This document shows positions 5,419 to 43,929 of a stretch of DNA of 43,929 nt, piece by piece. The notes beneath the pieces are model-generated. The model was not told the origin of the DNA, searched no databases, and worked only from the letters and a program-made list of their open reading frames with translations. Source of the stretch: Bacillota bacterium. GTDB lineage: Bacteria; Bacillota; Clostridia; Peptostreptococcales; Anaerovoracaceae. How positions within the stretch are numbered: position 1 is the stretch's first letter; the number at the start of each line of letters is the position of its first letter. The position numbers were made by a program, and so were the translations under genes. The stretch is from the NCBI GenBank assembly GCA_017522185.1, contig JAFWZZ010000023.1, forward strand, positions 1 to 43,929. The letters run 5' to 3'.

Positions 5419-5446
5419 GTGGGAAATAACAGAAGGACGAGAAAGC

Positions 5447-6085: not shown

Positions 6086-6109
6086 TATGGAATCTCCATA
6101 CAGGCTTTT
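6077..6109 (+). terminator. Terminator after trmB (convergent region)
   Basis: AAAGCCTG pairs with CAGGCTTT and an inner TATGG pairs with CCATA, followed by TTTT. The stem includes the trmB stop codon. The A-run on the left means it could also stop transcription from the minus-strand gene that ends at 6129. Confidence 0.75.
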
Positions 6110-6128
6110 CCTGTTTTGTATTAGACAA

Positions 6129-6842
6129 TTACTCGAAGGCAATATAGTCTGCCGGATTGCAGCGTGTGCCATCTTTACAGAGCTCGAAGTGTAAGTGGGC
6201 AGGCTCCATGGATTCGTAAAGTGCCGTTTTACCGATGGTACTGATCTGCTGGCCGCGGGAGACAACATCCCCTTTTTCTACGAGCGCCTTGGTCTCCAGG
6301 CAGGCGTATTTGGAAACGAGGTTGTCATCATGGGTGATTTCAATGGTAATGCCGTAGGCATCATCTTCATAGACGGCTGTCACGGTACCGTCTGCGATGG
6401 CATTGACACCGCTGCCGGAAGGCGCTTCCAGATCGATACCCGGATGTGTCATGTACTGATCGAGGGTCTGGTTATAGATGACCATATCCATGGAGTAGGC
6501 TTTGAGGACGGATGCGGTCTGCAGGCTGATAGGCGGCAGATAAGAAGGCGCAGCGGCCTGTCCCTCGGCGCTGTCTACGACAGGAACCGGTTCGGAAACC
6601 GGAAGGTCGGCAGCCTGCTGTTGTTTTTCCCTGTCTTCGGCCGGGGCAGCTTCTTTTTCTTCCTTGTCATCGGATGGTTCTGTCGCGATCTTCTGACCCG
6701 CCGGCAGATTCTTTGCGCTTTCATTGATCTTGTCTATGCTGGCCTGGATGGTAAAAATCGATGTCAGTGCGATGAGACAAAAACAGAGCACGATGGTTGC
6801 GGTGACACGGTCTTTGCTTCTTTTGTTTTTTGCATGGCGCAT
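6129..6842 (-). CDS. M23/LytM-domain membrane protein, SpoIIQ-like
   Basis: The protein has a short basic N-terminus, one membrane span (VTATIVLCFCLIALTSIFTI), an acidic/proline-rich linker and a C-terminal LytM domain. HPGIDLEAPSGSGVNAIADG gives the first zinc ligands (His and Asp) and AHLHFEL gives the HxH pair, so the metal site looks complete. The segment VLKAYSMDMVIYNQTLDQY before the domain resembles SpoIIQ, the forespore protein that forms the channel with SpoIIIAH during engulfment. Clostridial SpoIIQ keeps the catalytic ligands whereas Bacillus SpoIIQ has lost them. Start is ATG at 6842, with AGGAGG 8 nt upstream; an upstream GTG overlaps that site. A general cell-wall endopeptidase remains possible. 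Confidence 0.75.
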   Translation of the reverse strand: MRHAKNKRSKDRVTATIVLCFCLIALTSIFTIQASIDKINESAKNLPAGQKIATEPSDDKEEKEAAPAEDREKQQQAADLPVSEPVPVVDSAEGQAAAPSYLPPISLQTASVLKAYSMDMVIYNQTLDQYMTHPGIDLEAPSGSGVNAIADGTVTAVYEDDAYGITIEITHDDNLVSKYACLETKALVEKGDVVSRGQQISTIGKTALYESMEPAHLHFELCKDGTRCNPADYIAFE

Positions 6843-8276: not shown

Positions 8277-9029
8277 ATGAGACTCATATCCTGGAATGTA
8301 AACGGCCTGCGTGCCTGCCTGGGAAAAGGTTTTGTAGAATCCATGCGTGAACTGGATGCGGATTTTATCTGCATTCAGGAGACGAAGATGCAGGAAGGCC
8401 AGGCAGAGGTGGACATGCCGGAATTTGGACACGTATATTACAGCAGCGCGGAGAAGAAAGGCTACTCCGGCACTGCGGTTTTTGCAAAGGAAGAACCACT
8501 GCATGTGCAGATCAACTTTGGGAAACATACCGATGAGGGCCGCGGCGTCATCATGGAATACGAGAAGTTTTTCCTGGTGAATGTTTATGTGCCAAATGCC
8601 CAGGACAAGTTGAAGCGTATCGATTACCGAATGGAGTGGGAAGATGACTTCAGAGAATTCGTCCTGGAACTGGACAAGAAAAAACCGGTGATTATCTGTG
8701 GCGATATGAACGTGGCGAAAGAGGAAATCGATCTGAAGAATCCGAAATCTAACCGCGGCAACGCAGGATTCTCCGATCAGGAGCGCGACAAGATGCGTGA
8801 ACTGCAGGGGGCGGGCTTCGTGGACACGTTCCGCTATCTGTACCCTGATGCAGAAGGCATCTACAGCTGGTGGTCCTACCGCTTCAATGCCCGCAAGAAC
8901 AATGCGGGGTGGCGTATCGACTACTTCCTGGTCAGCGACCGCATCAAAGACAAAATCGTAGATGCAAAAATCCATACGGACATTTTCGGAAGTGACCACT
9001 GTCCGGTAGAATTGGAAATCGAACTATGA
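8277..9029 (+). CDS. xth: Exodeoxyribonuclease III / AP endonuclease
   Basis: DNA-repair nuclease that cleaves at abasic sites and degrades 3' ends. All signature blocks are visible in 250 residues: MRLISWNVNGLRA at the start, ICIQETKMQ (metal Glu), GDMNVAKEEIDL with the catalytic Asp/Asn, NAGFSDQERD, YSWWSYRFNARKNNAGWRIDY and the C-terminal GSDHCPV with the catalytic Asp-His. GAAGAGGAGGAAATATC precedes the ATG. Its stop overlaps the next gene by 4 nt (ATGA), so the two genes are co-translated. Confidence 0.95.
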   Translation: MRLISWNVNGLRACLGKGFVESMRELDADFICIQETKMQEGQAEVDMPEFGHVYYSSAEKKGYSGTAVFAKEEPLHVQINFGKHTDEGRGVIMEYEKFFLVNVYVPNAQDKLKRIDYRMEWEDDFREFVLELDKKKPVIICGDMNVAKEEIDLKNPKSNRGNAGFSDQERDKMRELQGAGFVDTFRYLYPDAEGIYSWWSYRFNARKNNAGWRIDYFLVSDRIKDKIVDAKIHTDIFGSDHCPVELEIEL

Positions 9030-9907
9030 GAACAAGTGTGATGATGAGTGCGGCAATTGCACTCTTACTGTGCCTGATTCTGTTTCTGCATTGGAATAAT
9101 AAGTCCATTGTGACAACGGAATATGTGTATGAGAGTGACAGGTTGCCGAAGGCATTTGACGGGTACCGCATCACCCATGTGTCGGACCTGCAGAGCGAAT
9201 ATTTTGGGAAAAATCAGAGAAACTTAATAGAAAAGACAGCGAAGACGAATCCGGACATTATCGTCTACACGGGAGACTTGTTAGACAGAAATCACACGGA
9301 TTTCGATGCGGCAAGAACTGCAATGGAAGGACTGCTCGATATCGCACCGGTATACTATGTCAACGGCAATCATGAGATGGCGGTGGAGGAGACTGCCATG
9401 AATGCCTTCTACGAAGAACTGGAGGCTATGGGTGTTTCCGTTCTCTTTGACCGCAGCCTTCGGATAACAAAGGACGATGCGGAGATCTGCCTGATGGGAC
9501 TTTCGGAACATACGGTTTTCGGATGCAAGGATTTTATAAGGGATAACAGCGCGCCGCTGGATATGAATATGCTGCAGGCGGCTTTGGACGGACTGCGCAG
9601 CCAGGGGGCGAAGAGTGATTTCTCGATTCTGCTCGCTCACGAGCCACAGTATCTGGATGCATACGCTGCAGCAGGATTTGATCTTGCCTTTGCCGGACAC
9701 GCCCATGGCGGACAAATTCGGCTGCCGTTTACGGACGGACTCTATGCACCAGGACAGGGCGTTCTGCCGAAACTGGCCAGTGGGATGCACGGGAAGGAAG
9801 AGACGACGCTGGTAATCAGCAGAGGGCTGGGCAACAGCACCTTCCCGTTCCGTGTCTTTAACAGACCGGAAATCATAACTGTAAAATTATTACATGGAAA
9901 TAATTGA
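9026..9907 (+). CDS. Membrane-anchored metallophosphoesterase (YkuE/calcineurin-like)
   Basis: Calcineurin-like phosphoesterase of 293 residues with an N-terminal membrane anchor (SAAIALLLCLILFLHW). The dimetal motifs are present in order: VYTGDLLDRNH, YVNGNHEM, LLAHEP and FAGHAHGGQIRLP. The first motif is altered: HVSDLQS has Gln where the family consensus D-x-H has a metal-binding His. This may be a subfamily variant. It overlaps xth by 4 nt. YkuE-like proteins often act at the cell surface on lipid or phosphoester substrates, but no specific substrate can be inferred. Confidence 0.85.
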   Translation: MRTSVMMSAAIALLLCLILFLHWNNKSIVTTEYVYESDRLPKAFDGYRITHVSDLQSEYFGKNQRNLIEKTAKTNPDIIVYTGDLLDRNHTDFDAARTAMEGLLDIAPVYYVNGNHEMAVEETAMNAFYEELEAMGVSVLFDRSLRITKDDAEICLMGLSEHTVFGCKDFIRDNSAPLDMNMLQAALDGLRSQGAKSDFSILLAHEPQYLDAYAAAGFDLAFAGHAHGGQIRLPFTDGLYAPGQGVLPKLASGMHGKEETTLVISRGLGNSTFPFRVFNRPEIITVKLLHGNN

Positions 9908-9932
9908 CATTAAGATGAAGAGGTGGTAATAT
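9904..9932 (+). promoter_or_regulatory. Promoter of the PC4/YdbC-like gene
   Basis: TTGACA (9904-9909), 17-bp spacer, TAATAT (9927-9932). The -35 box overlaps the last codons of the preceding gene. Confidence 0.7.
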
Positions 9933-9965
9933 ATTCCTGAGCTGACTGGCAGGGAGGAGTATATT

Positions 9966-10448
9966 ATGCCAGATAGAGACTTTACTTTTGAGATTGAGGA
10001 ACACTTCGGTGTGATCGGCAGTCGTGAAGGCTGGAACAAGGAGCTGAACCTGGTCAGATGGAACGGCGCAGCTGCAAAATATGACATCCGCGAATGGGAC
10101 GAGCATCATGAGCAGATGCACAGGGGGCTTACCCTGACACCATGGGAGATGCGGAAGGTGGTAGATTTGTTCGTGTCCAGAAACAACCATGCAGCCGTTG
10201 CCAGGGGTCGCGCCATCGAGGCCGGACGTAATGCCAGAAGAATCGCGGCAAGACAGAAGGCGGAGGAAACTGCGGCTGAAGCGGAACGTCAGGCAGAGCT
10301 GGAAGCTCTGGAGGGCGCCGCACCGCCCTTTGAGGAACCGTCTGCGGAGGAACCGCCTGCTGAGGAGCCGCCGACAGAGACTGCGGAGGAACAGAAGCAG
10401 GTGGACAGTGATGAATCTCAAGAGGAGCTGCAGGATGCAGATTTTTAA
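9966..10448 (+). CDS. PC4/YdbC-like single-strand nucleic-acid-binding protein with acidic tail
   Basis: Residues 1-75 (FTFEIEEHFGVIGSREGWNK, ELNLVRWNGAAAKYDIREWD, HHEQMHRGLTLTPWEMRKVV) match my recollection of the YdbC family, bacterial relatives of the transcriptional coactivator PC4 that bind single-stranded DNA. A basic, Ala/Arg-rich helix follows (residues 78-105), then a low-complexity Glu/Pro/Ala tail with repeated EEPPAEEPP-type units to the end. The core family is about 75 residues, so the tail roughly doubles the protein. The start has AGGGAGGAG upstream. The role in the cell is not established; the charged tail may be a partner-binding region. Confidence 0.7.
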   Translation: MPDRDFTFEIEEHFGVIGSREGWNKELNLVRWNGAAAKYDIREWDEHHEQMHRGLTLTPWEMRKVVDLFVSRNNHAAVARGRAIEAGRNARRIAARQKAEETAAEAERQAELEALEGAAPPFEEPSAEEPPAEEPPTETAEEQKQVDSDESQEELQDADF

Positions 10449-10511
10449 GAAGAGGAACCAAAGCTGCAGGAGGAGCATATCATATAGTACCTGACAAAAG
10501 GAGGTAATGAT

Positions 10512-10649
10512 ATGTTCTGTAATGACAGAAAAGGGATGGATGACAGTCTCTTATTCTTCTTTTTATTATTAGTTCTGCTGTTCTGCAATCCGAGCATGTT
10601 CGGCTGTGGAAACAACCAGTACGACACATGTGAACCTACATGTTGCTAG
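10512..10649 (+). CDS. 45-residue Cys-rich membrane peptide
   Basis: A small gene with a very strong ribosome-binding site (AAAAGGAGG, 7 nt before the ATG). The peptide starts MFCNDRKGMDD, continues with one hydrophobic segment (SLLFFFLLLVLLF, residues 12-24) and ends with CGNNQYDTCEPTCC. It contains seven Cys, five of them after the hydrophobic segment. I do not recognise a family. A membrane-anchored or spore-type peptide is conceivable. The strong translation signal and clean terminator support it as a real gene. It lies 63 nt after the PC4-like gene and is probably co-transcribed. Confidence 0.65.
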   Translation: MFCNDRKGMDDSLLFFFLLLVLLFCNPSMFGCGNNQYDTCEPTCC

Positions 10650-10655
10650 AAACAA

Positions 10656-10683
10656 AGAAGAGAGGGCATTAACCCTCTCTTCT
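10656..10683. terminator. Bidirectional terminator between convergent small genes
   Basis: An 11-bp perfect stem, AGAAGAGAGGG / CCCTCTCTTCT, with a 6-nt loop. It follows the 45-aa gene on the plus strand and contains the last codons of the DUF378 gene on the minus strand. The U-tract is weak on both sides. Confidence 0.6.
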
Positions 10684-10863
10684 GTCTTCAAAGAGAAAAG
10701 AAATTGACCATACGGCTGCGATCCCTACCAGCGCATAGATGATGCGGGCCAGGAAATAGAGATTGCCGCCGAAGATGGCGCTTACCAGGTTAAACTGAAA
10801 CAGACCGACCAGTCCCCAGTTGAGACCGCCGATGATAACCAGGATCAGGATTAGTTGCCTCAT
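10669..10863 (-). CDS. DUF378 family small membrane protein
   Basis: 64 residues with two membrane segments. The sequence LILVIIGGLNWGLVGLFQFN, then LVSAIFGG and LARIIYALVGIAAVWSI, is the DUF378 signature; the family is small, widespread in Firmicutes and of unknown function. The ATG at 10863 has AGGGAG 7 nt upstream. Longer in-frame starts would run across the divergent promoter region and are not supported. It is transcribed away from the nucleoside-kinase gene. Confidence 0.85.
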   Translation of the reverse strand: MRQLILILVIIGGLNWGLVGLFQFNLVSAIFGGNLYFLARIIYALVGIAAVWSISFLFEDRREG

Positions 10864-10951
10864 CAAATCACTCCCTTCGGGTGTATTTTGCCCGGGTATA
10901 TTTATTCTATACGAAAAATATGATAGAATAACAGCAAAGGAGGATGCTTTT

Positions 10952-12616
10952 ATGAAGATACAGTTAAAGACATCTCCCCGCGGGGAATACAGGGAATTAG
11001 ATATTGCAAAAGGAACGACACTGGAGACTTTGTACCGCAGCCTGGAGACCGGACTGCCATACACGGTTCTGGCGGCGAGAGTGCAGAACCGTCTGGAAGA
11101 GCTGACCTTTGCCGTGGAAGAACCTTGCCAGATTGAGCTTTTGGACATGCGGACCCAGGATGCGAATCTAATCTATCAGTACAGTCTGACGCTTCTGTAC
11201 ATCAAGGCGGTCCGGGACTGTCTGGGGCCGGTTCGTGTGGAAGTGCAGAATTCCCTGAACAAAGGGTTATATACAGAAATCAAGACGAAAGAAAATATTA
11301 CGGAAGCGCAGGTGCGGCAGATTGAGGAACGGATGCGGGAGCTGGTAGCAGCAGACCTGCCTTTCGTAAAGGAGCGTGTGAGCCGGGAAGACGCCGTGAG
11401 CATTCTGCAACAGGCAGGGCTGGAAGAGAAACACCGGCTTCTGGAACATGCTGAAGATATAGAAACGGTGGACTTCTACACCCTGGACGACTACAGAGAT
11501 TCCTTCTTCTCGGCCATGGTGCCGTCTACGGGTTACCTGCAGCATTTTGAACTGAAGAAATACAGGCGTGGTGTGCTGCTTCGCTTTCCACATCCGTCTG
11601 AGCCAGACCGGATACCGGACTATGAGGACGAGGTGAAGCTGTATCAGGCGTTCAGTGAGCAGACCAGATGGGATCAGCTTCTGGGTGTCAATTACGTGGC
11701 AGACTTAAACGAAAAGATCGAAAGCGGCGCATACAAGGAACTGATTCAGTTGTCGGAAGCCCTGCATGAGAAGAAAATTTCAGATATTGCGGATCAGATT
11801 AAACAGGAACGCAAGCGGATCGTCCTCATCGCGGGACCTTCTTCTTCCGGGAAAACGACTTTCGCCCAGAGACTGTGCATCCAGCTGAAGGTCAACGGGC
11901 TGGAGCCTTTGTATCTGGGAACGGATGACTACTTTGTGGAGCGGGAAGAGACACCGCTGGACCAGCACGGCGAACCAGATTATGAAAACCTGGGTGCGGT
12001 GGACATCGAACTGTTTAACCGGAATATGAACGATCTGCTGGAAGGCAGGGAAGTCGACCTGCCGGCCTTTGATTTTCTTACGGGCCACAAGGTGTTTGGA
12101 AAACGAATCACGAAGATCAACGGCAGACAGCCCATCGTTATCGAGGGCATTCACGGGCTGAACGAAGAACTGACGGCACAGATTCCGAAAGAAGAAAAGT
12201 TCAAGATCTATATCAGCCCGCTGACCCAGCTGAATATCGACGGTCATAACCGCATCCCGACCACGGAGGAGCGTATGCTGCGCAGAATGGTCCGGGATTA
12301 CCGCTACCGTGGGAAGGCAGCCCAGACGACCATCGACGAATGGCCGAAGGTTCGGGCGGGAGAAGATACCAACATCTTCCCTTACAACGGGGAGGCGGAT
12401 GTACTGTTCAATTCCTATCACGTGTATGAGATTGCAGTACTGAAGAAATACGCGGAACCGCTGCTTCGTGCGGTGAAGGATACGGAACCGTCCTACATGA
12501 CGGCACAGCGGCTGCTGGACTTCCTGCAGTTTTTCCGTACCATTGAAGACGATCACATTATCGTGAACAACTCTATCATCAGGGAGTTTATCGGCGGCAG
12601 TATATTTGTAGAATAA
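10952..12616 (+). CDS. TGS-domain nucleoside (uridine-type) kinase
   Basis: 554 residues in three parts. Residues 1-65 look like a TGS/ubiquitin-like domain (KGTTLETLYRSLETG). Residues 70-270 resemble the threonyl-tRNA synthetase second additional domain, including YTLDDYRDSFFSAMVPSTGY. Residues 288-500 are a P-loop kinase of the uridine-kinase/phosphoribulokinase family, with Walker A GPSSSGKTT at 295-303, the LGTDDYF base/ribose region, FDFLTGHK and VIEGIHGLN. AAAGGAGGATGCTTTT precedes the ATG; an upstream in-frame start at 10820 would be antisense to DUF378 and lacks a site. Related proteins are annotated as nucleoside kinases. It precedes a PfkB kinase, so a role in nucleoside salvage is reasonable. 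Confidence 0.85.
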   Translation: MKIQLKTSPRGEYRELDIAKGTTLETLYRSLETGLPYTVLAARVQNRLEELTFAVEEPCQIELLDMRTQDANLIYQYSLTLLYIKAVRDCLGPVRVEVQNSLNKGLYTEIKTKENITEAQVRQIEERMRELVAADLPFVKERVSREDAVSILQQAGLEEKHRLLEHAEDIETVDFYTLDDYRDSFFSAMVPSTGYLQHFELKKYRRGVLLRFPHPSEPDRIPDYEDEVKLYQAFSEQTRWDQLLGVNYVADLNEKIESGAYKELIQLSEALHEKKISDIADQIKQERKRIVLIAGPSSSGKTTFAQRLCIQLKVNGLEPLYLGTDDYFVEREETPLDQHGEPDYENLGAVDIELFNRNMNDLLEGREVDLPAFDFLTGHKVFGKRITKINGRQPIVIEGIHGLNEELTAQIPKEEKFKIYISPLTQLNIDGHNRIPTTEERMLRRMVRDYRYRGKAAQTTIDEWPKVRAGEDTNIFPYNGEADVLFNSYHVYEIAVLKKYAEPLLRAVKDTEPSYMTAQRLLDFLQFFRTIEDDHIIVNNSIIREFIGGSIFVE

Positions 12617-17237: not shown

Positions 17238-17521
17238 GCTTGCTTAAGGCGATGAAGTAGGAAGTTGCTGGGCTATCAGGTTTTCCTACGGAGAATTGTC
17301 CCCACCTGATGGGGGCGAAGGTGTTCGCCGGCTTTTGCTTTGTGCCAAAATAAAAGAAACGCACGGAGGCGTGTACAAAGTAAGCAATTCCACCGTTACA
17401 CGTTAAGGAAGCAGGCATTTGACTGATCTACGAATTGAAACATCAAATCGCCTAAGGTCAATTAAAGAACCCCTTGTACAGGCATAGCGAAAACAGTACA
17501 AAAAAGAAAGGAAAAAGAAAG
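17238..17521 (+). ncRNA. Structured 5' leader of the S10 operon
   Basis: A 280-nt untranslated leader without an open frame of note. Visible helices: a closing helix between AGGCGAT (17247-17253) and ATCGCCT (17447-17453), CCCCA/TGGGG near 17300-17314, GGCGAA-GGTG-TTCGCC (17314-17329), and a TTGCT/AGCAA-type stem around 17334-17385. Ribosomal operons in many bacteria use such leaders for feedback by a ribosomal protein (L4 for the E. coli S10 operon). Which protein binds here is unknown. Confidence 0.6.
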
Positions 17522-36301: not shown

Positions 36302-36319
36302 GTTTTTCCATGCTATACT
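36291..36319 (+). promoter_or_regulatory. Promoter of the ECF S-component leader
   Basis: TTGTCT (36291-36296), 17-bp spacer, TATACT (36314-36319). The sequence TGCTATACT followed by TATGCAGAAGTATGC is very similar to the promoter region of the second cobalamin riboswitch at 38079-38127. Confidence 0.6.
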
Positions 36320-36325
36320 GTTTAT

Positions 36326-36442
36326 GGTATGCAGAAGTATGCCACGAAGACAGAAGTCTTTTCATTATAGAAAAAATTAACATGACAAAGACGATACCAG
36401 AAGGTGTCACCATATCCCAGCAGGGGGCGGTGCGCCTTTTTC
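36326..36442 (+). promoter_or_regulatory. Leader RNA with terminator before the S component (riboswitch candidate)
   Basis: About 115 nt between promoter and gene. Hairpins GGTATGC-AGAA-GTATGCC and AAGAC-AGAA-GTCTT come first. Then AAGGTG-T-CACC pairs with GGTG-CGCCTT, directly followed by TTT (36402-36442), an intrinsic terminator shortly before the ribosome-binding site. The layout is that of a transcriptional attenuator. I do not recognise a known ligand class (not cobalamin, TPP, FMN, THF or preQ1-I by eye). Confidence 0.5.
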
Positions 36443-36462
36443 TATTGTCGGAAGGAAGCAAT

Positions 36463-36987
36463 ATGAAGAGAGAAACTGATGTAAAGAAATTAACCTATTC
36501 TGCCTTATTTTTAGCGCTGGCTTTTGTGCTGCCGTTTTTGACAGGCCAGATTCAGCAGATTGGCAACATGCTTTGCCCGATGCATATACCTGTAATCTTA
36601 TGTGGTTTTATCTGTGGGGCACCATGGGGCGGTCTGGTGGGTGCGCTGGCGCCGATTTTAAGATCTATGACTTTGGGCATGCCGGTGCTGTTCCCCAACG
36701 CGGTCTGCATGGCGGTGGAACTTGCCGTTTACGGATTTGTTTCTGGCCTGTTGTATAGCATGCTGCCGAAGAAGAAAGCAAGCGTGTATATCTCACTGAT
36801 TACGGCCATGATTGCCGGCAGGGCGGCATGGGGGCTGGCCATGTTCAGCGTGCTGGGATTCGATACGGCAAAATTCGGCTTTGATGCTATCATCGCGACG
36901 ACTATCACCGCATCCATTCCGGGTATTATCCTGCAGCTTGTGCTGATTCCGGTGATTGTTTTTGCGGTGGAAAAGAGAGTAAAGTAA
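36463..36987 (+). CDS. ECF transporter S component
   Basis: Substrate-binding membrane subunit of a group II ECF transporter, 174 residues with about five or six spans. The pattern LTYSALFLALAFVLPFLTGQ, QIGNMLCPMHIPVILCGFIC, GAPWGGLVGALAPILRSMTL and AVCMAVELAVYGFVSGLLY is of the PF12822-type S components. It would be energized by the EcfA1-A2-T module at 2923-5418. ATG 36463 has GAAGGAAG upstream; in-frame starts further 5' lie in the leader RNA. The vitamin is not identifiable from sequence. Pantothenate-like and corrinoid-related S components are both possible, the latter only by neighbourhood. Confidence 0.8.
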   Translation: MKRETDVKKLTYSALFLALAFVLPFLTGQIQQIGNMLCPMHIPVILCGFICGAPWGGLVGALAPILRSMTLGMPVLFPNAVCMAVELAVYGFVSGLLYSMLPKKKASVYISLITAMIAGRAAWGLAMFSVLGFDTAKFGFDAIIATTITASIPGIILQLVLIPVIVFAVEKRVK

Positions 36988-36995
36988 GACGCCGC

Positions 36996-37024
36996 TTTAC
37001 AAAAACGGATTTCGATGCTACAAT
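36996..37024 (+). promoter_or_regulatory. Promoter of cobalamin riboswitch 1
   Basis: TTTACA (36996-37001), 17-bp spacer, TACAAT (37019-37024). It begins 9 nt after the S-component stop, so the riboswitch unit has its own start. Confidence 0.6.
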
Positions 37025-37045
37025 ACTCGTACAACTGAAGAAACA

Positions 37046-37210
37046 TTCATGTTCTCATGTTACGACATGAGCTAAGAGGGAAGCAGGTGTAAATCCTGCG
37101 CGGTCCCGCCACTGTAAAGGAAGAGCAGGATTCAATATGTCACTGAGGCCGGAAGGCTTTGGGAAGACGGATCGTGCGACGAGGCCTGAGCCAGGAGACC
37201 TGCATGAACT
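37046..37210 (+). promoter_or_regulatory. Cobalamin riboswitch 1
   Basis: Classical B12-sensing RNA. The P1 helix is TTCATG (37047-37052) with CATGAA (37203-37208). The conserved core reads GAAGCAGGTGTAAATCCTGC, GCGGTCCCGCCACTGTAA, then GTCACTG, GGGAAGACGG, CGACGAGGCCTGAGCCAGGA and GACCTGCATG, which includes the B12 box. It is followed by an intrinsic terminator, so cobalamin binding should reduce transcription of the two genes downstream. Confidence 0.93.
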
Positions 37211-37263
37211 GTATTTCTATCGACGGAGCATCGAGAAAGAAAGCGACATAAACAGCAAATACG

Positions 37264-37291
37264 GACTGTGGCTTTTTGGCCACAGTCTTTT
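37264..37291 (+). terminator. Riboswitch-controlled terminator 1
   Basis: GACTGTGGC-TTTTTG-GCCACAGTC followed by TTTT. It lies between riboswitch 1 and the 95-aa gene, in the position of an expression platform. Confidence 0.85.
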
Positions 37292-37337
37292 ATTGTTTTC
37301 TTTTCGAAACGCGGTCATGACGAAAGGAGAAAGAAAG

Positions 37338-37625
37338 ATGACAAATATCAAATGGTTTAAGGACCCGGACAACATTTCTTATGTAGACGCAAATGAATTT
37401 ATGGATCATTTTGGAAAAGAAATCGGTGTTGAAAATTTAAGAGAAAAGGTAAAGGCCTTTGCAGACAATCCAACAAAGGAAGGGCAGATGCTGAAGGGCA
37501 CAAAGAGAACAAGCATCAAGCTGTTCATTCCGGATCTGACATTTGATGAGCATTTGGAAATGGGCGAAAATGTCTGGATGTTTATGGGAGAACATTACGA
37601 CTGCTACTGTATCTATAACCTATAA
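37338..37625 (+). CDS. 95-residue protein of unknown function, B12-regulated
   Basis: First gene after riboswitch 1. The product starts MTNIKWFKDPDNISYVDANE and ends WMFMGEHYDCYCIYNL. It is soluble, mixed alpha/beta in character and has two Cys close to the C-terminus in DCYC. I do not recognise the family. ATG 37338 has AAAGGAGAAAGAAAG upstream; an in-frame start at 37137 would read through the riboswitch and terminator and is rejected. It is 18 nt before a COG2158-like gene, so the two are an operon. Confidence 0.75.
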   Translation: MTNIKWFKDPDNISYVDANEFMDHFGKEIGVENLREKVKAFADNPTKEGQMLKGTKRTSIKLFIPDLTFDEHLEMGENVWMFMGEHYDCYCIYNL

Positions 37626-37643
37626 CCAGAAAGAGGAGAATCT

Positions 37644-37925
37644 ATGAAACCACTGACAACAGAAAACTACAAGTTCCACAGCCATAAAGAATGTGAGTTT
37701 TTCCCATGTCATGAGACAGCGGACAGCGAAGCATTTAACTGCTTATTCTGCTACTGTCCTCTGTATCCTATGGGCAAAAACTGTGGCGGCAACTATGTTT
37801 ATTTAGAAAATGGCATCAAAGACTGCAGCAACTGCATGGTGCCTCACAAAAAAGGCAACTACGACTACATCATGACAAAGCTGATGGAATATCATAAGCA
37901 GCTGCGAGAAGAAGGCCGCCTGTAA
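37644..37925 (+). CDS. Cys-rich small zinc-type protein (COG2158/PF04071-like)
   Basis: 93 residues. The Cys-rich stretch HKECEFFPCHETADSEAFNC, LFCYCPLYPMGKNCGG and KDCSNCMVPHKKGNYDYIM is the pattern of the Cys-rich small domain found beside cobalamin-biosynthesis genes in many anaerobes. About nine Cys and two His could hold zinc or an iron-sulfur cluster. The family's biochemical role is not known. Its place under a B12 riboswitch supports a corrinoid-related function. GAAAGAGGAG precedes the ATG. Confidence 0.85.
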   Translation: MKPLTTENYKFHSHKECEFFPCHETADSEAFNCLFCYCPLYPMGKNCGGNYVYLENGIKDCSNCMVPHKKGNYDYIMTKLMEYHKQLREEGRL

Positions 37926-37933
37926 TGACGGGA

Positions 37934-38039
37934 GATTCATCCATTTGTCTCCACCCATAATGCATTGATCTTAAAACGCAGAGAAAATGGATGCCTGCTC
38001 ATGGAGAGCCCGGCAAAGGGATGGGAAATGCCGGGCTCT
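37934..38039. repeat. Long stem-loops between the Cys-rich gene and riboswitch 2
   Basis: AGAGCCCGGCA (38005-38015) pairs perfectly with TGCCGGGCTCT (38029-38039) around 13 nt. Further out, CATCCATTT near 37937 can pair with AAATGGATG near 37985. There is no U-tract on the plus side. It may still end the upstream operon or stabilize its 3' end. Confidence 0.45.
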
Positions 38040-38078
38040 GCATTGAGCTGCAGTGAAAATTGATATACAAGTCCCCCC

Positions 38079-38107
38079 TTTACGAATTCGCCATTTGGTG
38101 CTATACT
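38079..38107 (+). promoter_or_regulatory. Promoter of cobalamin riboswitch 2
   Basis: TTTACG (38079-38084), 17-bp spacer, TATACT (38102-38107). Confidence 0.6.
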
Positions 38108-38141
38108 AGATATGCAAAAGTATGCACAAAATGAATAACAC

Positions 38142-38308
38142 GAAATTTCATGTTCTCATGCTACGGCATGAGCTAAGAGGGAAGCCGGTGTGAATCCGGC
38201 GCGGTACCGCCGCTGTAAGGGAAGAGTATCGTCTAATATGTCACTGTGACTGCTGGTCATGGGAAGGCAGACGATTGCGATGAGGCCCGAGCCAGAAGAC
38301 CTGCTTGG
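38142..38308 (+). promoter_or_regulatory. Cobalamin riboswitch 2
   Basis: Core GAAGCCGGTGTGAATCCGGC, GCGGTACCGCCGCTGTAA, GTCACTG, GGGAAGGCAGACG, GATGAGGCCCGAGCCAGAAG and ACCTGC match the cobalamin riboswitch. The first 80 nt are close to those of riboswitch 1. Differences are compensatory: GCAGG/CCTGC there and GCCGG/CCGGC here, CATGT/ACATG there and CATGC/GCATG here. An intrinsic terminator follows, then the 89-aa gene. Confidence 0.93.
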
Positions 38309-38375
38309 AATTGGCAGAGATTCTGACGGATTTATCAGACAAGCTGCAAAGTATTTTAGTGTACAGAAATAATAC

Positions 38376-38410
38376 GGGCTGTAACACCATTTGGTGTTAC
38401 AGCCCTTTTT
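38376..38410 (+). terminator. Riboswitch-controlled terminator 2
   Basis: GGGCTGTAACACCA pairs with TGGTGTTACAGCCC, followed by TTTTT. It is one of the strongest terminators in the window and lies before the only gene of this unit. Confidence 0.92.
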
Positions 38411-38471
38411 GTGTTTTTGGTTATAAACGGGACCGCACATAAAAATAGATTAGACAGGTAAGGAAGAACGC

Positions 38472-38741
38472 ATGACACCAGAAGAAAAAAAGATGATTGA
38501 AATTTATGAGCGAATGACCGACGAGGAAATTTTCCAGTTTGTGAGAAATACAGCAGACGAGTTAGGTCGTATACCGACCAAGAACGATTTGCTTTGTCCA
38601 TGGTATCTAAAGGAACGATTTGGTCCGTGGCCAAGATTTATGGAGAAGGCTGGCGTAAAACAAGTCAGCGAAAGACGCAAGAAGAAGCTGGAAGAGATGG
38701 AACTGAAGAAGAGAAGAACAAACAAGAAATCTGACCAGTAG
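38472..38741 (+). CDS. 89-residue HNH-repeat-like DNA-binding protein, B12-regulated
   Basis: The core EEIFQFVRNTADELGRIPTK followed by YLKERFGPWPRFMEKAGV resembles the homing-endonuclease-associated repeat (PF18780-like), a small helix-turn-helix fold. There is no nuclease domain. The C-terminus is a charged, Lys/Arg/Glu-rich helix ending in KKRRTNKKSDQ. A stand-alone unit of this kind could act as a regulator or DNA/RNA-binding adaptor. It has its own promoter, cobalamin riboswitch and terminator. AAGGAAG lies 6 nt before the ATG. Confidence 0.7.
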   Translation: MTPEEKKMIEIYERMTDEEIFQFVRNTADELGRIPTKNDLLCPWYLKERFGPWPRFMEKAGVKQVSERRKKKLEEMELKKRRTNKKSDQ

Positions 38742-38755
38742 CGTTTAATTCGGCT

Positions 38756-38785
38756 TTGATTGAGCCGTGTTAATAAAAATATTAC
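38756..38785 (+). promoter_or_regulatory. Weak promoter of cobalamin riboswitch 3
   Basis: TTGATT (38756-38761), 18-bp spacer, TATTAC (38780-38785). A small dyad (CGGCT/AGCCG, 38751-38767) overlaps the -35 region and may end the preceding unit. Confidence 0.35.
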
Positions 38786-38789
38786 TTTT

Positions 38790-38957
38790 ATGTTTCCTGT
38801 ATGACGGTGATACAGGACGAAGATGGAACCCGGTGCAAGTCCGGGACGGTACCTGCCGCTGTAAGTGAAGAGTTTCTCTCCAATATGCCATTGGGATGCT
38901 GTAAGCGCCTGAGAAGGCGGAGAGACGCAGTGACGCACAAGTCAGAAGACATGCATA
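38790..38957 (+). promoter_or_regulatory. Cobalamin riboswitch 3
   Basis: A more divergent copy. Recognisable core: GGAACCCGGTGCAAGTCCGG, GACGGTACCTGCCGCTGTAA, GCCATTGGGATG, GAGAAGGCGGAGAGACGCAG and the B12 box variant AAGTCAGAAGACATGCA. Peripheral helices differ from copies 1 and 2. No intrinsic terminator is evident after it, so control is probably at translation or through the following 130-nt leader. Confidence 0.85.
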
Positions 38958-39086
38958 GAGCGAAGATAAAGTATTAACTTTTGCAAATGCTATAAGAGGA
39001 AAAATGAATTAGGAGGTGCAAAGAAGACTTGTACGATGGGCATACCGAAGCCCGACGAAATACAAAATAGAGAAAGGAAGATAGAT
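38958..39086 (+). promoter_or_regulatory. Leader between riboswitch 3 and the surface protein
   Basis: The leader has a two-codon frame (ATG AAT TAG at 39004) preceded by AGAGGAAAA, then TAGGAGGTGC. TTGCA near 38981 can pair with TGCAA at 39018-39022. A GGGC/GCCC hairpin follows near 39039-39054. The gene's own site AAAGGAAG is 9 nt before the ATG. Translation control by competing pairings is possible but not shown. Confidence 0.35.
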
Positions 39087-42000
39087 ATGAACGGAAAACA
39101 TGAGAAACGTTCAAGAATCGTAGCATTGCTGATGGTGTTTATGATGGTATTTACCATGATTCCATCCATGGCATTTGCTGCACCGGCGGAATATGTTCCA
39201 TTTTTGGTGTATGATGCTGATTATGAAACTGAAATGACTCGAATTGATGAAAGTGTTTTGGAATGGGAAGATTGGATGACAGGTGGAACTTCTCAGATTC
39301 CTTGCTATACCGTAACTATTCCCAAAGGAACATTTGAAGTAGTTGTAGCCTTTGAGGAGGAAAAAGAGTGGTTTTGGTATGATAGTAAAGGAAATATGAT
39401 TAACGAAGGAGGACTATGTGAAGAGGATTCTTTCCAAATTCAGGACTCTAATAACGATGGGGAGTTAGACGGAATTTCCGTACAGATTCCCGAAACGTAT
39501 ACTACGGAATATTTTATCTTATTTGAATATGCAGAACCATTGAAAGTCATGGTAGACGAAACACCGATCACTACAATTGATGAAGGTACAATCGAATGGT
39601 TCAATATGGAAACATATGGCATGGAGGAAATTCCAATGTACACGGTTACAGTACCACAAGGTACTACCGAAGCGACACTGAAGTTCGATAGTGAAAAGGT
39701 ATGGACTTATTATGACAGCAAGGGAGAGTATATTGATGAAGGAAGCTGGTCAGAAGACACGGAACATACAGTAGCAGTACAAGACACTAACGGGGACGGC
39801 GAACTTGATGGTATTTCAGTTCAGGCGCCACAGGCGTGGAGTGCAGAATTCTTCGTGCTATTTGTCTATGACGGTGAACATGTCCACAAATATGGTGACT
39901 GGCAGATTACAGAGGCAACCTGTTATGCAGAAGGCGTAAAAACCCGTACTTGTCCAAGTTGTCCTGAAGGAACAGAAGGCAAAGTAGAGTCGGAAGTAAT
40001 TCCTAAGGCAGGGCATAGCTATCCGGATGAATGGACCGTAAAAAAGAATGCAACTTGTACAGAAAGCGGCAAAAAGATTCGCGAATGTACTGTATGCCCT
40101 GAAGGAACAGAAGGTCATGTAGAAGAAGCGTCTATTTCCGCATTGAACCACGATTATGACACGGTAAACTTTGAGGTGACAGTGGAACCAACTTGTACAA
40201 CAGCTGGGACAAAGGTTCTGTCTTGTAAACGTGATGGCTGTACTGCCGAAACCTCCGGACACACCAAAACAGAAACAATAGCAAAGCGTGGCCACGACTA
40301 CGACGAAGAAACCAGAATCTGTTCTCGTTGTCAGGATGTGGAACTGGCGAAGGACAAAGACGGCGCTTATCTGATTGAAACAGAAGCTGATTTATTATGG
40401 TTTGCAAAGACTGTAAATGAAGGCTTCAACGATATCGATGGGAAGCTGACTGCAGACGTGGATTTAGGACAGCTGAAAGACGAAACTGGAAAAACAATTA
40501 CATGGCCAGGCATTGGTAACTCTGCAAATCCATTCAAAGGTTCCTTCGATGGTCAAAACCATACGATTACACTGAATGGTTCCGTGTGGGGCGTTTTCAG
40601 TCGTGTAATGGGTACAAGCGACGATAACTTTGGACCAAAGGACGTAGCCGTAATTAAGAATGTCATCACAGATGGTACTTCTAAAAATGCACCTCTGATT
40701 CACATTGGTGGATACATGGAAGTTTCCAACTGTGTAAATAAGGCTGACGTAAAAGGCAACAACGCTTGCGTGGCTGGCATTGTAGGAAGCGTAGCTTATG
40801 CACTGCAATATAATTCTGTAAAATACAGCTATGTAAAAATTGAGAACTGCATCAACGAAGGCGAAATTAACGGAATGTCCTGCGTGGGCGGCATCTTAGG
40901 GGAAGGCCTTGCTGGTACAACCGTAATCGGCTGTGCCAATACTGGTAACATCATTGGCGGAACACATATTGGTGGTCTTGTAGGTTATCTGCAGGAAATC
41001 AATGGTACTTGTGCGATCAAGAACAGCTATAATATCGGCAAAGTAACAGGGGATACTGCTGCTGGCGGTATCATCGGAAGTTTATTCAATGGCGCAGAAG
41101 TTTCTAACTGCTATAACACAGGTGTTGCGCCTTATGCAATCGCAGGAAATATCTACAACAATACGGTATCCATTACGAACACATATTATCTTGGTATGAC
41201 GGGTTCCCATGGTACACCATATGAATGCCAGACTGGAGTTGCTTTGAACACAGCTTACTACGGCACATCCGTAACCACTGCGTACATGAGTAGCGAAGAT
41301 TTTGCAAAAGATTTAGGCGACGGCTTCAAACAGAGCTGTCCATCTCCTGTCTTTGAAAACCAGAATACTGCGGAACATAACTTAGAAGGCGGTATTTGTA
41401 CAGTCTGCAAAACAGGAAATACAATCAAAGAAGAATACAAGATAACTTTTGTACTGCCAGACGGCGCAGAAGTGGTTGGTGACACAACCGTAAAAGAAGG
41501 TAACGACTATACATTCTCCGTAAATATTTTAGACGGATATTATGCAGATGGCTTCGGAGTAACTGTAAACAGCGCATCTGTAACAGCTGTGGATGGCGTT
41601 TATACTGTAGAACAGCCAAACGGACCATTCTATATTACGGTGACTGGTATCAAAGCGTTAACAGATAGAGTTCCAATTACTATTCCTGGAACTGGAAACG
41701 GTTACAGAGTAAACCTTTGTGACGGCTACAACAGCGTTGTAGAAAGCGGCAAAGACTTCAAGTTTACAGTTGATTTTGTTGACGGCTTCAAAGCAGGCAA
41801 AGACTTTACTGTAAAGAGAACCGACAGCTACGGCGAAGTTGAACTGGAAGCAGATGAAAACGGCGTTTATACCATCGAGAATGTCATGATTCCGCAGAAA
41901 ATTACGGTAGACGGTGTAGATGCGATTCCTGGACAGAACTCCGTAACCATTGGTTTTGACTGTACAGAAGGAGAAATGCTGTTCCTGCAGGCAGAAGAGA

Positions 42001-43929
42001 CTGGTGCCATTACCATGGACAATCAGATTGAAATTCCATATTTTGATTTAGAACTGTATGGCTACGAAAAGTACTACTATAACCCATATTGTTATGTAGA
42101 CGAAAATGGAGCAATCAGAGGCCAGCAGAAGGCAGGTAACCGCGAAACAGCATACAATGTAGTAACTGCGATGCATGCATTCATCTATATCACAGATATG
42201 TACTACCTGAATTACGATGCAGACGTAGCTGGAACTGGCTATACAGATAACATTGACAGCGATGGCGATGGAATCAGTGACTTTGATGAAGCCGTATCCT
42301 GGACACAGGGCGTAGGCTCCAGCTTCATGGACTTCTGGGGCTTAGGTACTAACCTGAACTATCACATTAATTATGAATATCCGCTGGCTTATCCAAAGTG
42401 GGGTTCCACATCTGACCAGCAGGCATTGAAGGATGGCGATCTGCTTTCCGTTCATATGATTACAGGAAATGCAAGTGGATCCGGTTTCGGTCTGTTCGCT
42501 GTAAATGATAACAACAACAAATACAACAAAACCGAAACAAGAGACAGCTTTACTGTAAAACAGGGGGAAGAAATCAAACTGACCCACTACATTGGTACAC
42601 AGGGACCAAACTATACAACAAAGTTTATTACCGGACCAGATAAGGTTCTGTATTGGACAGAAGAAGGCGACGAAAGCGTTGATGTGACCACTTGGAATCG
42701 TGCAGGCTTTGGATCCATGAAGGCTGCAGACTTCAAGACAAATAGCAAGGGCGAAATTGTCATCGACACAACAGACCTTAAACCAGGCGTATACTACATC
42801 GCCACAACTGGCGGCTTTATCAAAGGTACCGGTGAAGCAGGATCTGACGGATTCGTATCCGCAGGTACAGAATGTGGTCCGGCATACTTCAAGCTGACAG
42901 TAGAAGGCTTAACTGACGCAGAGATCTTAGCAGCAGCAAAGGAAGCAGCAAAGGCAAAAGTTGCAGCATACAAAGATGCATCCTTATACAGAGAAGCACA
43001 GCAGACTGAACTGTCCAAGGCAATCGAAGACGCAGCGAAGGCAATCGATGCAGCGGAAGACAAGGAAGCCGTAGCAGAAGCAGTATCTGCAGCAAAGGCA
43101 GCAATGGACGCCATCAAGACGGACGCACAGATGAAGGCGGAAGAAGAAGTAGCGGCGGAAGCACTGGCAGCAGCAAAGACAGCTGCGAAGCTTGAAGTTG
43201 CAGCGTACAAAGATGCATCCTTATACAGAGAAGCACAGCAGACTGAACTGTCCAAGGCAATCGAAGACGCAGCGAAGGCAATCGATGCAGCAGAAGACAC
43301 CGATGCTGTAGATGAGGCAGTATCTGCAGCAAAGGCAGTGATGGACGCAATCAAGACAGACGCACAGATGAAGGCAGAAGAAGATGAAGCTGCGGCAGCA
43401 GCACTGGCAGCAGCGAAAGCAGCAGCAAAGAAGGAACTTGCGGAATACAAGAATCCTGCAGACTATAGAGCAGCACAGCAGAAAGAATTGTCTGATATGA
43501 TTCAGGTTGCAGAGCTGGTTATCGATGCAGCAGAAGATGTGGATGCAGTGACAGCAGCCGTATCTACAGCGAAGGCAGAACTGGACAAGGTTAAGACAGA
43601 CGCACAGCTGAAGGCAGAGGAGGAAGCCGAAGCGGACAAACCGTCTGACACAGACAAACCGTCTGACACAGACAAGCCGTCCGACACAGACAAGCCATCT
43701 GACACAGACAAGCCGTCCGACACAGACAAGCCATCTGACACAGACAAGCCGTCTGACACAGACAAACCGTCTGACACAGACAAACCATCTGACACAGATA
43801 AGCCGTCCGATACAGACAAACCGTCTGACACAGATAAGCCATCTGACACAGATAAGCCGTCCGATACAGACAAACCGTCTGACACAGACAAACCGTCTGA
43901 CACAGACAAACCAGCTGACACAGACAAAC
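39087..43929 (+). CDS. Giant B12-regulated surface repeat protein (partial, runs off the window)
   Basis: An open frame of at least 1,614 codons without a stop. Order: signal peptide (residues 1-31, cut after AFA); two similar beta domains (about 35-262), each ending in a calcium-type loop (DSNNDGELDG, DTNGDGELDG); Cys-pair/His repeats (264-421) such as TCPSCPEGTEGK; a GLUG-like beta-helix (425-705) with VGGILGEG, IGGLVGYL, AGGIIGSL; Ig-like strands (778-948); a DUF4430/transcobalamin-C-terminal-like region (949-1275) with ETAYNVVTAMHAF, an inserted loop DSDGDGISDFDEA, LNYHINYEYP, ALKDGDLLSVHM and a closing PAYFKLTVEG; three 79-80-residue helical repeats (about 1282-1515); and 16 copies of PSDTDK. 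Sitting behind a cobalamin riboswitch, it is a candidate corrinoid-binding surface protein. Any wall anchor lies beyond the window. Confidence 0.85.
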   Translation, partial: MNGKHEKRSRIVALLMVFMMVFTMIPSMAFAAPAEYVPFLVYDADYETEMTRIDESVLEWEDWMTGGTSQIPCYTVTIPKGTFEVVVAFEEEKEWFWYDSKGNMINEGGLCEEDSFQIQDSNNDGELDGISVQIPETYTTEYFILFEYAEPLKVMVDETPITTIDEGTIEWFNMETYGMEEIPMYTVTVPQGTTEATLKFDSEKVWTYYDSKGEYIDEGSWSEDTEHTVAVQDTNGDGELDGISVQAPQAWSAEFFVLFVYDGEHVHKYGDWQITEATCYAEGVKTRTCPSCPEGTEGKVESEVIPKAGHSYPDEWTVKKNATCTESGKKIRECTVCPEGTEGHVEEASISALNHDYDTVNFEVTVEPTCTTAGTKVLSCKRDGCTAETSGHTKTETIAKRGHDYDEETRICSRCQDVELAKDKDGAYLIETEADLLWFAKTVNEGFNDIDGKLTADVDLGQLKDETGKTITWPGIGNSANPFKGSFDGQNHTITLNGSVWGVFSRVMGTSDDNFGPKDVAVIKNVITDGTSKNAPLIHIGGYMEVSNCVNKADVKGNNACVAGIVGSVAYALQYNSVKYSYVKIENCINEGEINGMSCVGGILGEGLAGTTVIGCANTGNIIGGTHIGGLVGYLQEINGTCAIKNSYNIGKVTGDTAAGGIIGSLFNGAEVSNCYNTGVAPYAIAGNIYNNTVSITNTYYLGMTGSHGTPYECQTGVALNTAYYGTSVTTAYMSSEDFAKDLGDGFKQSCPSPVFENQNTAEHNLEGGICTVCKTGNTIKEEYKITFVLPDGAEVVGDTTVKEGNDYTFSVNILDGYYADGFGVTVNSASVTAVDGVYTVEQPNGPFYITVTGIKALTDRVPITIPGTGNGYRVNLCDGYNSVVESGKDFKFTVDFVDGFKAGKDFTVKRTDSYGEVELEADENGVYTIENVMIPQKITVDGVDAIPGQNSVTIGFDCTEGEMLFLQAEETGAITMDNQIEIPYFDLELYGYEKYYYNPYCYVDENGAIRGQQKAGNRETAYNVVTAMHAFIYITDMYYLNYDADVAGTGYTDNIDSDGDGISDFDEAVSWTQGVGSSFMDFWGLGTNLNYHINYEYPLAYPKWGSTSDQQALKDGDLLSVHMITGNASGSGFGLFAVNDNNNKYNKTETRDSFTVKQGEEIKLTHYIGTQGPNYTTKFITGPDKVLYWTEEGDESVDVTTWNRAGFGSMKAADFKTNSKGEIVIDTTDLKPGVYYIATTGGFIKGTGEAGSDGFVSAGTECGPAYFKLTVEGLTDAEILAAAKEAAKAKVAAYKDASLYREAQQTELSKAIEDAAKAIDAAEDKEAVAEAVSAAKAAMDAIKTDAQMKAEEEVAAEALAAAKTAAKLEVAAYKDASLYREAQQTELSKAIEDAAKAIDAAEDTDAVDEAVSAAKAVMDAIKTDAQMKAEEDEAAAAALAAAKAAAKKELAEYKNPADYRAAQQKELSDMIQVAELVIDAAEDVDAVTAAVSTAKAELDKVKTDAQLKAEEEAEADKPSDTDKPSDTDKPSDTDKPSDTDKPSDTDKPSDTDKPSDTDKPSDTDKPSDTDKPSDTDKPSDTDKPSDTDKPSDTDKPSDTDKPSDTDKPADTDK
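41935..42910 (+). other. DUF4430/transcobalamin-like region of the surface protein
   Basis: The stretch resembles the bacterial DUF4430 arrangement: a segment ending in TAYNVV, then Trp/Tyr-rich strands (FMDFWGLGTNLNYHINYEYP), then LKDGDLLSVHM, followed by a beta domain with FTVKQGEEIKLTHYI, GEIVIDTTDLKPGVYYI and a final PAYFKLTVEG. In eukaryotic intrinsic factor and transcobalamin the matching domain helps clamp cobalamin. The match is by eye and the DSDGDGISDFDEA insertion is unusual. Confidence 0.4.
42929..43630 (+). repeat. Three tandem alpha-helical repeats
   Basis: Units start near 42929, 43170 and 43404. Equivalent positions 42963 and 43200 are 237 nt apart, and 43201 and 43441 are 240 nt apart. 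The first 100 nt of units 1 and 2 differ at only about two positions, showing recent duplication, while unit 3 has diverged. The protein pattern YKDASLYREAQQTELSKAIE is FIVAR-like and forms a stalk. Confidence 0.85.
43641..43929 (+). repeat. 18-nt tandem repeat encoding PSDTDK
   Basis: Sixteen full units to the window edge: fifteen PSDTDK and one PADTDK. Third positions vary (CCG/CCA, AAA/AAG, GAC/GAT). It encodes an acidic/proline-rich stalk, as in wall-spanning regions. Length is likely variable between strains, and assembly errors are easy here. Confidence 0.95.

Follow-up and report, generated by a model that had tools for sequence, protein, structure and literature searches.

Three cobalamin riboswitches in an Anaerovoracaceae contig precede genes for small accessory proteins and for a large surface protein, probably as part of a corrinoid-scavenging regulon

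Cobalamin riboswitches of the family RF00174 have been surveyed at the level of regulons, and the target classes named in the excerpted text of that survey are B12 synthesis, transport of B12 or its precursors, cobalt transport, and isozymes (PMC3766115). In Bacteroides, according to the excerpted accounts of BtuG and BtuH, riboswitch-controlled loci, several per genome, add surface-exposed B12-binding proteins to the transporter (PMC6143338, PMC8941943), and the excerpted text of PMC9481103 describes seven riboswitches within 7 kb in Desulfobacca acetoxidans. Here we consider a window of 43,929 nucleotides, a whole contig (C18) from a member of the Anaerovoracaceae, for which the initial annotation had claimed three cobalamin riboswitches within 2 kb, none of them before a classical B12 gene. 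Both points are borne out (Table 1). A covariance-model search with RF00174 at the Rfam gathering threshold returned three matches on the forward strand (RS1, RS2 and RS3), each spanning the full length of the model (positions 1-189), with scores of 113.2-123.1 bits against a gathering cut-off of 31.5 bits, and the annotation of the downstream genes places no classical B12 gene directly 3' of any of the three. Scores so far above the cut-off exclude a chance origin, and look-alike hairpins were rejected as a source on the same grounds. The first genes behind RS1 encode a 95-aa protein (P95) and a Cys-rich protein of the family PF04071, while RS2 precedes an HNH-repeat protein and RS3 a giant surface protein.

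Table 1 Positions of the features discussed, in window coordinates
Feature	Position	Strand	Remarks
Promoter-like site 5' of RS1	36996-37024	+	TTTACA-17-TACAAT; consensus scan, not above shuffle background
RS1, cobalamin riboswitch (RF00174)	37032-37221	+	123.1 bits, E 1.4e-30
Intrinsic terminator of RS1	37263-37288	+	11-pair stem, then T run
P95, 95-aa protein	37338-37625	+	no family match in Pfam, NCBIfam, PHROGs or PADLOC
Cys-rich protein, 93 aa, PF04071 (zf-like)	37644-37925	+	Pfam 100.2 bits (curated cut-off 27)
Promoter-like site 5' of RS2	38079-38107	+	consensus scan, not above shuffle background
RS2, cobalamin riboswitch (RF00174)	38133-38322	+	121.0 bits
Intrinsic terminator of RS2	38376-38405	+	13-pair stem, then T run
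89-aa protein, one HNH_repeat (PF18780)	38472-38741	+	Pfam 50 bits (curated cut-off 26)
RS3, cobalamin riboswitch (RF00174)	38773-38972	+	113.2 bits
Shine-Dalgarno-like AGGAGGUGC	39011-39019	+	upstream of surface gene start at 39087
Giant surface protein, 1614 aa or longer	39087-43929	+	truncated at contig end
Divergent DUF4430-like domain of surface protein	about 41937-42860	+	profile comparison

Our main reading, to which we assign a probability of roughly 70%, is that the window would represent a split-up portion, under riboswitch control, of a regulon for corrinoid scavenging in Anaerovoracaceae and some Oscillospiraceae, combining surface capture, handling by P95 and the Cys-rich protein, a DNA-binding HNH-repeat protein and serial OFF switches. 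The computed part of this reading comprises the three riboswitches, the terminators of the first two, the repeated occurrence of the target genes behind such riboswitches and beside ECF-transporter and DUF4430 genes, and the genes in which P95 and the Cys-rich protein are fused. RS1-RS3 probably control the small accessory proteins and the large surface protein, and the relatives of these proteins suggest that they belong to a B12-scavenging system.

The wider genome is consistent with such a regulon. It holds six RF00174 riboswitches, three of them in the window, and the other three precede an ECF T/A/S and DUF4430 operon, a CbiR-like TIM-barrel gene and btuFCD-like genes. CbiC was not found in this genome (99.1% complete), yet five genes with a B12-binding domain are present, which speaks for a need for corrinoids. 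Models of defence systems gave no match. A survey of gene order in related Clostridia found P95, HNH-repeat and surface genes recurring behind cobalamin riboswitches and beside ECF/DUF4430 genes, in agreement with the initial description of a corrinoid-response locus.

The expression platforms differ among the three RNAs. RS1 and RS2 are each followed by an intrinsic terminator, and none was found 3' of RS3. It had been proposed that each RNA has its own promoter, a claim that the sequence does not support: the evidence for promoters is weak throughout, since the consensus scan gave 3 sites in the region against a mean of 4.8 in shuffles, placing the sites before RS1 and RS2 within the background. 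The same scan gave no site before RS3, and a separate promoter for RS3 is unsupported, because it has neither a promoter-like site nor a terminator and starts 31 nt past the stop codon of the HNH-repeat gene. Within the candidate Shine-Dalgarno sequence, positions 39014-39019 can form six pairs (one of them G-U) with bases 38849-38854 of the RS3 aptamer, a weak hint that RS3 may act on translation.

High intracellular cobamide would be expected to make RS1 and RS2 terminate transcription, and RS3, which probably sits within the transcript of the HNH-repeat gene, would act on translation, which would place the surface protein under two OFF switches in series. At low cobamide, judging from neighbourhood, fusion and domain type, the wall-attached surface protein may capture or hand over corrinoids, the cytoplasmic pair of P95 and the Cys-rich protein may help to receive or process the cargo of the transporter, and the small HNH-repeat protein may bind DNA.

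The surface protein could alternatively be an ordinary adhesin or S-layer protein whose production is cued by B12 limitation and which does not bind corrinoids; we regard this as somewhat unlikely. The protein contains GLUG motifs and, by eye, a signal peptide, helical repeats and a Pro-rich DTDKPS repeat; the GLUG motifs and the low-complexity repeats would suit an adhesin. Capture at the surface, put forward in the initial annotation, is partly supported, since the domain is only DUF4430-like and misses the Pfam cut-off: PF14478 (DUF4430) gave no Pfam match at E values up to 1, and a profile-profile comparison gave a modest match (probability 63.6, E 6.7e-5, 41 columns). A structure model of the domain, built from two sequences, was unusable (pLDDT 36.6), and a profile search of the PDB (E up to 1) returned two weak, unrelated matches. 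DUF4430 has been placed at the C-terminus of vertebrate B12 carriers in the excerpted text of PMC4350170, and PDB sequence searches with the canonical DUF4430 domains of these genomes matched no such carrier, so any link to transcobalamin derives from that source. Two further giants behind riboswitches lack a Pfam DUF4430 (one from C. aminobutyricum, L174, and the incomplete protein of L079), yet other giants of the genus directly behind riboswitches carry it (65.3 bits in L093 and 37.1 bits in L089). The divergent domain itself also recurs directly behind a riboswitch in three of eight homologues (L149, L150 and L202), and in L202 the order is riboswitch, fused P95 and Cys-rich gene, riboswitch, giant, with the domain at 65% identity. 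Of the first seven homologues, four lack a riboswitch within the stretch fetched, and for a fifth the riboswitch lies more than 4 kb off.

For P95, a search of GTDB contigs with the single sequence yielded 99 pattern stretches and no relative, and a search with an alignment yielded 85 relatives, of which 80 were kept. In a family-wide sample of 20 copies, 13 have a riboswitch above the cut-off at a distance of 117-306 nt upstream, and 29 of the 80 GTDB loci have one within 600 nt upstream, as against 23 of 627 other, mechanically called ORFs in the same loci. The 29 include weak model matches (28.6 bits in L171, where nothing exceeds the Rfam cut-off) and leave out one partial match (L239, 6677-6714). 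No riboswitch was found within 600 nt upstream in the remaining 7 copies and 51 loci, with 3 of the 80 loci offering less than 500 nt of upstream sequence; a search for other regulatory RNAs 5' of such genes, covering 11 of 48 loci, found only a tRNA immediately upstream in L214. These samples are not independent, since the GTDB loci overlap the family-wide genomes (e.g. L168/G023 and L208/G137) and some riboswitches were counted twice in the terminator survey. Genus riboswitch positions are those among the matches listed, and 84 of the 85 typed lie inside fetched stretches.

The P95 gene is fused to PF04071 in six genomes (G002, G005, G008, G009, L171 and L202). Its direct operon neighbours are ECF and DUF4430 uptake genes in loci from Anaerovoracaceae as well as from Oscillospiraceae: the order riboswitch, P95, DUF4430, toroid-like protein, ECF T occurs in L208 and L217, its first four elements in L212, and the order toroid-like protein, P95, DUF4430, ECF T, with no riboswitch detected, in L228 and L241. 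Four toroid-like proteins that were tested score too low to pass the Pfam thresholds for squalene-cyclase/prenyltransferase toroids, and the one compared with the PDB had weak matches to structures of the squalene-cyclase type and to some ubiquitin-type chains. The uptake neighbourhood argues against the proposal, which we judge unlikely, that P95 and its Cys-rich partner are under B12 control because they function in a B12-independent bypass or in an iron-sulphur or redox process and not in uptake. That proposal draws on the cysteine pattern of PF04071, on a lineage in which P95 precedes a YjeF_N/MazG gene, on the lack of a fold match for P95, and on the position of PF04071 genes mostly away from riboswitches (in a sample of 119 genomes, 45 have such a gene, and in just 3 of these does it lie within 600 nt behind a riboswitch). 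The suggestion of a metal or cluster protein is partly supported by membership in PF04071. The structure model of P95 is confident (pLDDT 94), but P95 has no clear match in the PDB; weak leads to RNase Sa and 1nyn are not claimed as its fold. The missing match is no evidence of a new fold.

The HNH-repeat protein of the window gave in Pfam its repeat and a chance-level match to DUF3419, a long relative gave the repeat only (long relatives carry several copies), and the sole match obtained in PHROGs links the protein to a family of unknown function. That RS2 and this gene form a degenerate homing-type mobile cassette, inserted between the unit of P95 and that of the surface protein and without a corrinoid role, is very unlikely: PF18780 is by name a homing-endonuclease-associated repeat, HNH copy number varies with some genes adjoining each other (L119, L204), and one genome (G020, L114) has the order riboswitch, Resolvase gene, HNH gene, riboswitch, secreted protein, but Pfam finds no nuclease domain, the catalytic hallmark of a homing endonuclease, in the window protein, in one of the long forms or in three further relatives, 8 of 10 HNH-repeat genes of the genus (among the matches listed) lie directly behind a riboswitch above the cut-off, and the long forms, unlike random passengers, head ECF operons or adjoin CbiK and divergent CbiM genes. 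In Flavonifractor plautii (L234), both the second riboswitch (25.8 bits, below 31.5) and the HNH-repeat match (17.6 bits, below 26) are sub-threshold.

If the scavenging-regulon reading is correct, P95, a family without description, gains a pathway that can be tested directly, because it is present in named strains (Emergencia timonensis SN18 and Flavonifractor plautii ATCC 29863), the PF04071 and HNH-repeat proteins acquire a place in physiology, and the split arrangement, with as many as three consecutive aptamers, offers a natural test of how serial OFF switches set the order in which capture, handling and regulatory proteins are expressed. A bolder version, quite unlikely in our estimation, would make the HNH-repeat proteins a new type of regulator of transcription one tier below the riboswitches (B12 shortage, sensed by the RNA, yielding a DNA-binding protein that resets further corrinoid genes), P95 together with its Cys-rich partner a new pair that handles corrinoids inside the cell, and serial riboswitches in one transcript a means of grading the order of production.

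The locus had been called undescribed, and no paper describing it stood among the literature matches listed, which cover subscription journals thinly. With the surveyed RF00174 regulons it shares the RNA family and the presence of uptake genes among the targets, whereas P95, PF04071 and HNH-repeat proteins are unnamed in the excerpted text of that survey (PMC3766115). The ECF-type B12 transporter, in the excerpted text of PMC5997447, has its counterpart in the ECF T/A/S genes that stand behind a cobalamin riboswitch, both in this genome and in P95 operons, although here the transporter genes lie on another contig and the P95, Cys-rich and HNH-repeat partners are not mentioned in that text. The likeness to BtuG and BtuH lies in the pairing of surface proteins with a transporter under riboswitch control, but the Bacteroides system belongs to the Gram-negative outer membrane (PMC6143338, PMC8941943), as against an ECF system with large secreted proteins here, and the window's surface domain has no clear sequence match to a solved structure. 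The cluster of Desulfobacca acetoxidans, as excerpted, likewise packs three AdoCbl riboswitches into a short stretch, but joins them to c-di-GMP-I and c-AMP-GMP aptamers to form logic gates, whereas in the window all three are of the cobalamin type, with genes between them (PMC9481103).

A proposal, made from the sequence of the window, that it carries three cobalamin riboswitches was confirmed by a search with the Rfam model RF00174, whose three full-length matches exceed its cut-off of 31.5 bits by 82 to 92 bits; they are ordinary members of this class. The host genome (2.12 Mb, 99.1% complete, with the window as contig C18) contains six such riboswitches in total. The other three precede a CbiQ-like T/ABC/ECF-S operon ending in a DUF4430 (PF14478) protein gene, a TIM-barrel protein gene that is weakly CbiR-like (36.3 bits against a cut-off of 105), and BtuF/C/D-like genes. 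As these are ordinary B12 targets, the three units in the window constitute extra targets. The genome encodes five B12-binding-domain proteins and no CbiC was found in it, fitting a corrinoid user unable to synthesise the ring through the standard pathway, although a single absent gene is not proof of this. The only further Rfam match above gathering score in the window was an S10-Clostridia ribosomal leader (17244-17318, 40.6 bits).

Features of the three riboswitch units in the window
Feature	Position	Strand	Remarks
RS1	37032-37221	+	RF00174, full length
RS1 terminator	37263-37288		3' of RS1, then P95 (95-aa protein)
RS2	38133-38322	+	RF00174, full length
RS2 terminator	38376-38405		3' of RS2, then 89-aa HNH-repeat protein
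RS3	38773-38972	+	RF00174, full length

The gene for P95 is followed 18 nt downstream by one for a Cys-rich protein (PF04071). RS3 starts 31 nt past the HNH-repeat gene (PF18780) and is followed by the gene of a giant surface protein, which is cut by the contig end after at least 1614 aa and has, by eye, a signal peptide. No terminator was found behind RS3; six of its aptamer bases can pair, one of them as G-U, with a Shine-Dalgarno-like sequence (39014-39019), which hints weakly at control of translation. As in the window, the riboswitch 5' of the giant gene closely follows the preceding gene in three relatives (28 nt in L174, 16 in L171 and 64 in L202), and terminators accompany 7/16 riboswitches before proteins of at least 700 aa versus 73/95 before smaller ones, these riboswitches being non-independent. 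By eye, many terminators of the surveyed riboswitches share a near-identical stem, GGRCTGTGG...CCACAGTCC, in several genomes. Separately, a leader at 36302-36462, flanked by a DUF3842 gene and the gene for an ECF S component (36463-36987), has a strong predicted hairpin, a terminator-like site (36422-36440) and no Rfam match, and is possibly an attenuator.

P95 matched nothing in Pfam, NCBIfam, PHROGs or PADLOC, and its confidently predicted structure has no clear match among solved structures (PDB). Twenty copies occur in 19 of 119 genomes drawn from the Anaerovoracaceae, 13 with an above-cut-off riboswitch on the same strand, starting from 117 and reaching up to 306 nt away on the 5' side, one (G020) with a riboswitch 6.3 kb upstream and six with none nearby. 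An alignment search of GTDB contigs recovered 80 P95 loci, extending to Flavonifractor plautii (Oscillospiraceae) and one MAG labelled Oscillospiraceae; a covariance model trained on 47 riboswitches from the genomes studied places a riboswitch within 600 nt upstream of P95 in 29 of them, compared with 23/627 other ORFs of at least 80 aa in the same loci. Gene orders include riboswitch-P95-DUF4430-toroid-like (L212), the same followed by ECF T (L208, L217) and, with no riboswitch detected, toroid-like-P95-DUF4430-ECF T (L228, L241) and Cys-P95-ECF T-ABC-S-CbiR-like (L186). P95 and the Cys-rich domain form a single open frame in six genomes (G002, G005, G008, G009 and those of L171 and L202), and this fusion, together with their adjacency, makes a joint function likely. 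Eight riboswitch-less P95 loci (L172, L173, L175, L181, L182, L183, L185, L196) share by eye an upstream TATGTACCAT motif, and in seven of them one gene family follows P95, its member in L172 being a YjeF_N/MazG protein.

HNH-repeat genes number ten in 8 of 13 genomes of the host genus, and eight lie directly behind an above-cut-off riboswitch (one each in G000, G005, G009 and G011, two each in G007 and G008); upstream of the others are a 25-bit model match (G010) and no match (G004). Long forms of about 345 aa, with four repeats by a local profile, head ECF T/A/S operons in G005, G007 (C27), G008 (C59) and G009, and in G007 (C54) and G011 adjoin a CbiK gene accompanied by a divergently oriented riboswitch and CbiM gene. 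Across the family sample, a riboswitch directly precedes 5 of 14 HNH genes (15 matches), two of these five riboswitches scoring below cut-off. The F. plautii locus L234 reorders the window's parts: riboswitch, weak HNH-repeat, sub-threshold riboswitch, Cys-rich, P95. Two further arrangements were observed. In L114 (G020, 8606-12552) a riboswitch precedes a Resolvase-family recombinase gene, followed by an HNH-repeat gene, a riboswitch and a secreted protein gene; in L101 (G001, 3619-6658) a riboswitch and terminator directly precede a UvrD-type helicase gene, as if the CbiR-like gene lying between them in relatives such as L110 had been lost.

Eight further proteins contain homologues of a domain of the surface protein (41937-42860), with a riboswitch directly upstream in three (L149, L150, L202), more than 4 kb upstream in L155, and none within the stretch fetched for L151 to L154. 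Closest to the window's layout is L202 (riboswitch, fused P95 and Cys-rich, riboswitch, giant), whose giant is 65% identical across the domain and carries, by eye, a sortase-like tail; the L149 anchor is CW_binding_2. Pfam DUF4430 is absent from both, and the domain profile resembled canonical DUF4430 of the genomes studied across 41 columns (probability 63.6, E 6.7e-5). Pfam DUF4430 occurs in two giants directly behind riboswitches of the host genus (L093, L089) and in a third behind a P95-Cys gene (L088); the truncated L079 giant and that of C. aminobutyricum (L174) have none.

Among the matches listed, the literature searched held no description of this gene set. The novelty lies in which genes are targeted and how they are arranged, including riboswitches repeated between genes, rather than in the riboswitch class. 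P95 represents an undescribed family, which fusion and operon context would link to corrinoid uptake, and in the host genus the HNH-repeat proteins belong regularly to the B12 regulon; the roles of all these proteins are inferred. The closest parallels among the papers listed are the BtuG/BtuH loci of Bacteroides (PMC6143338, PMC8941943) and the Desulfobacca cluster of seven mixed riboswitches (PMC9481103).
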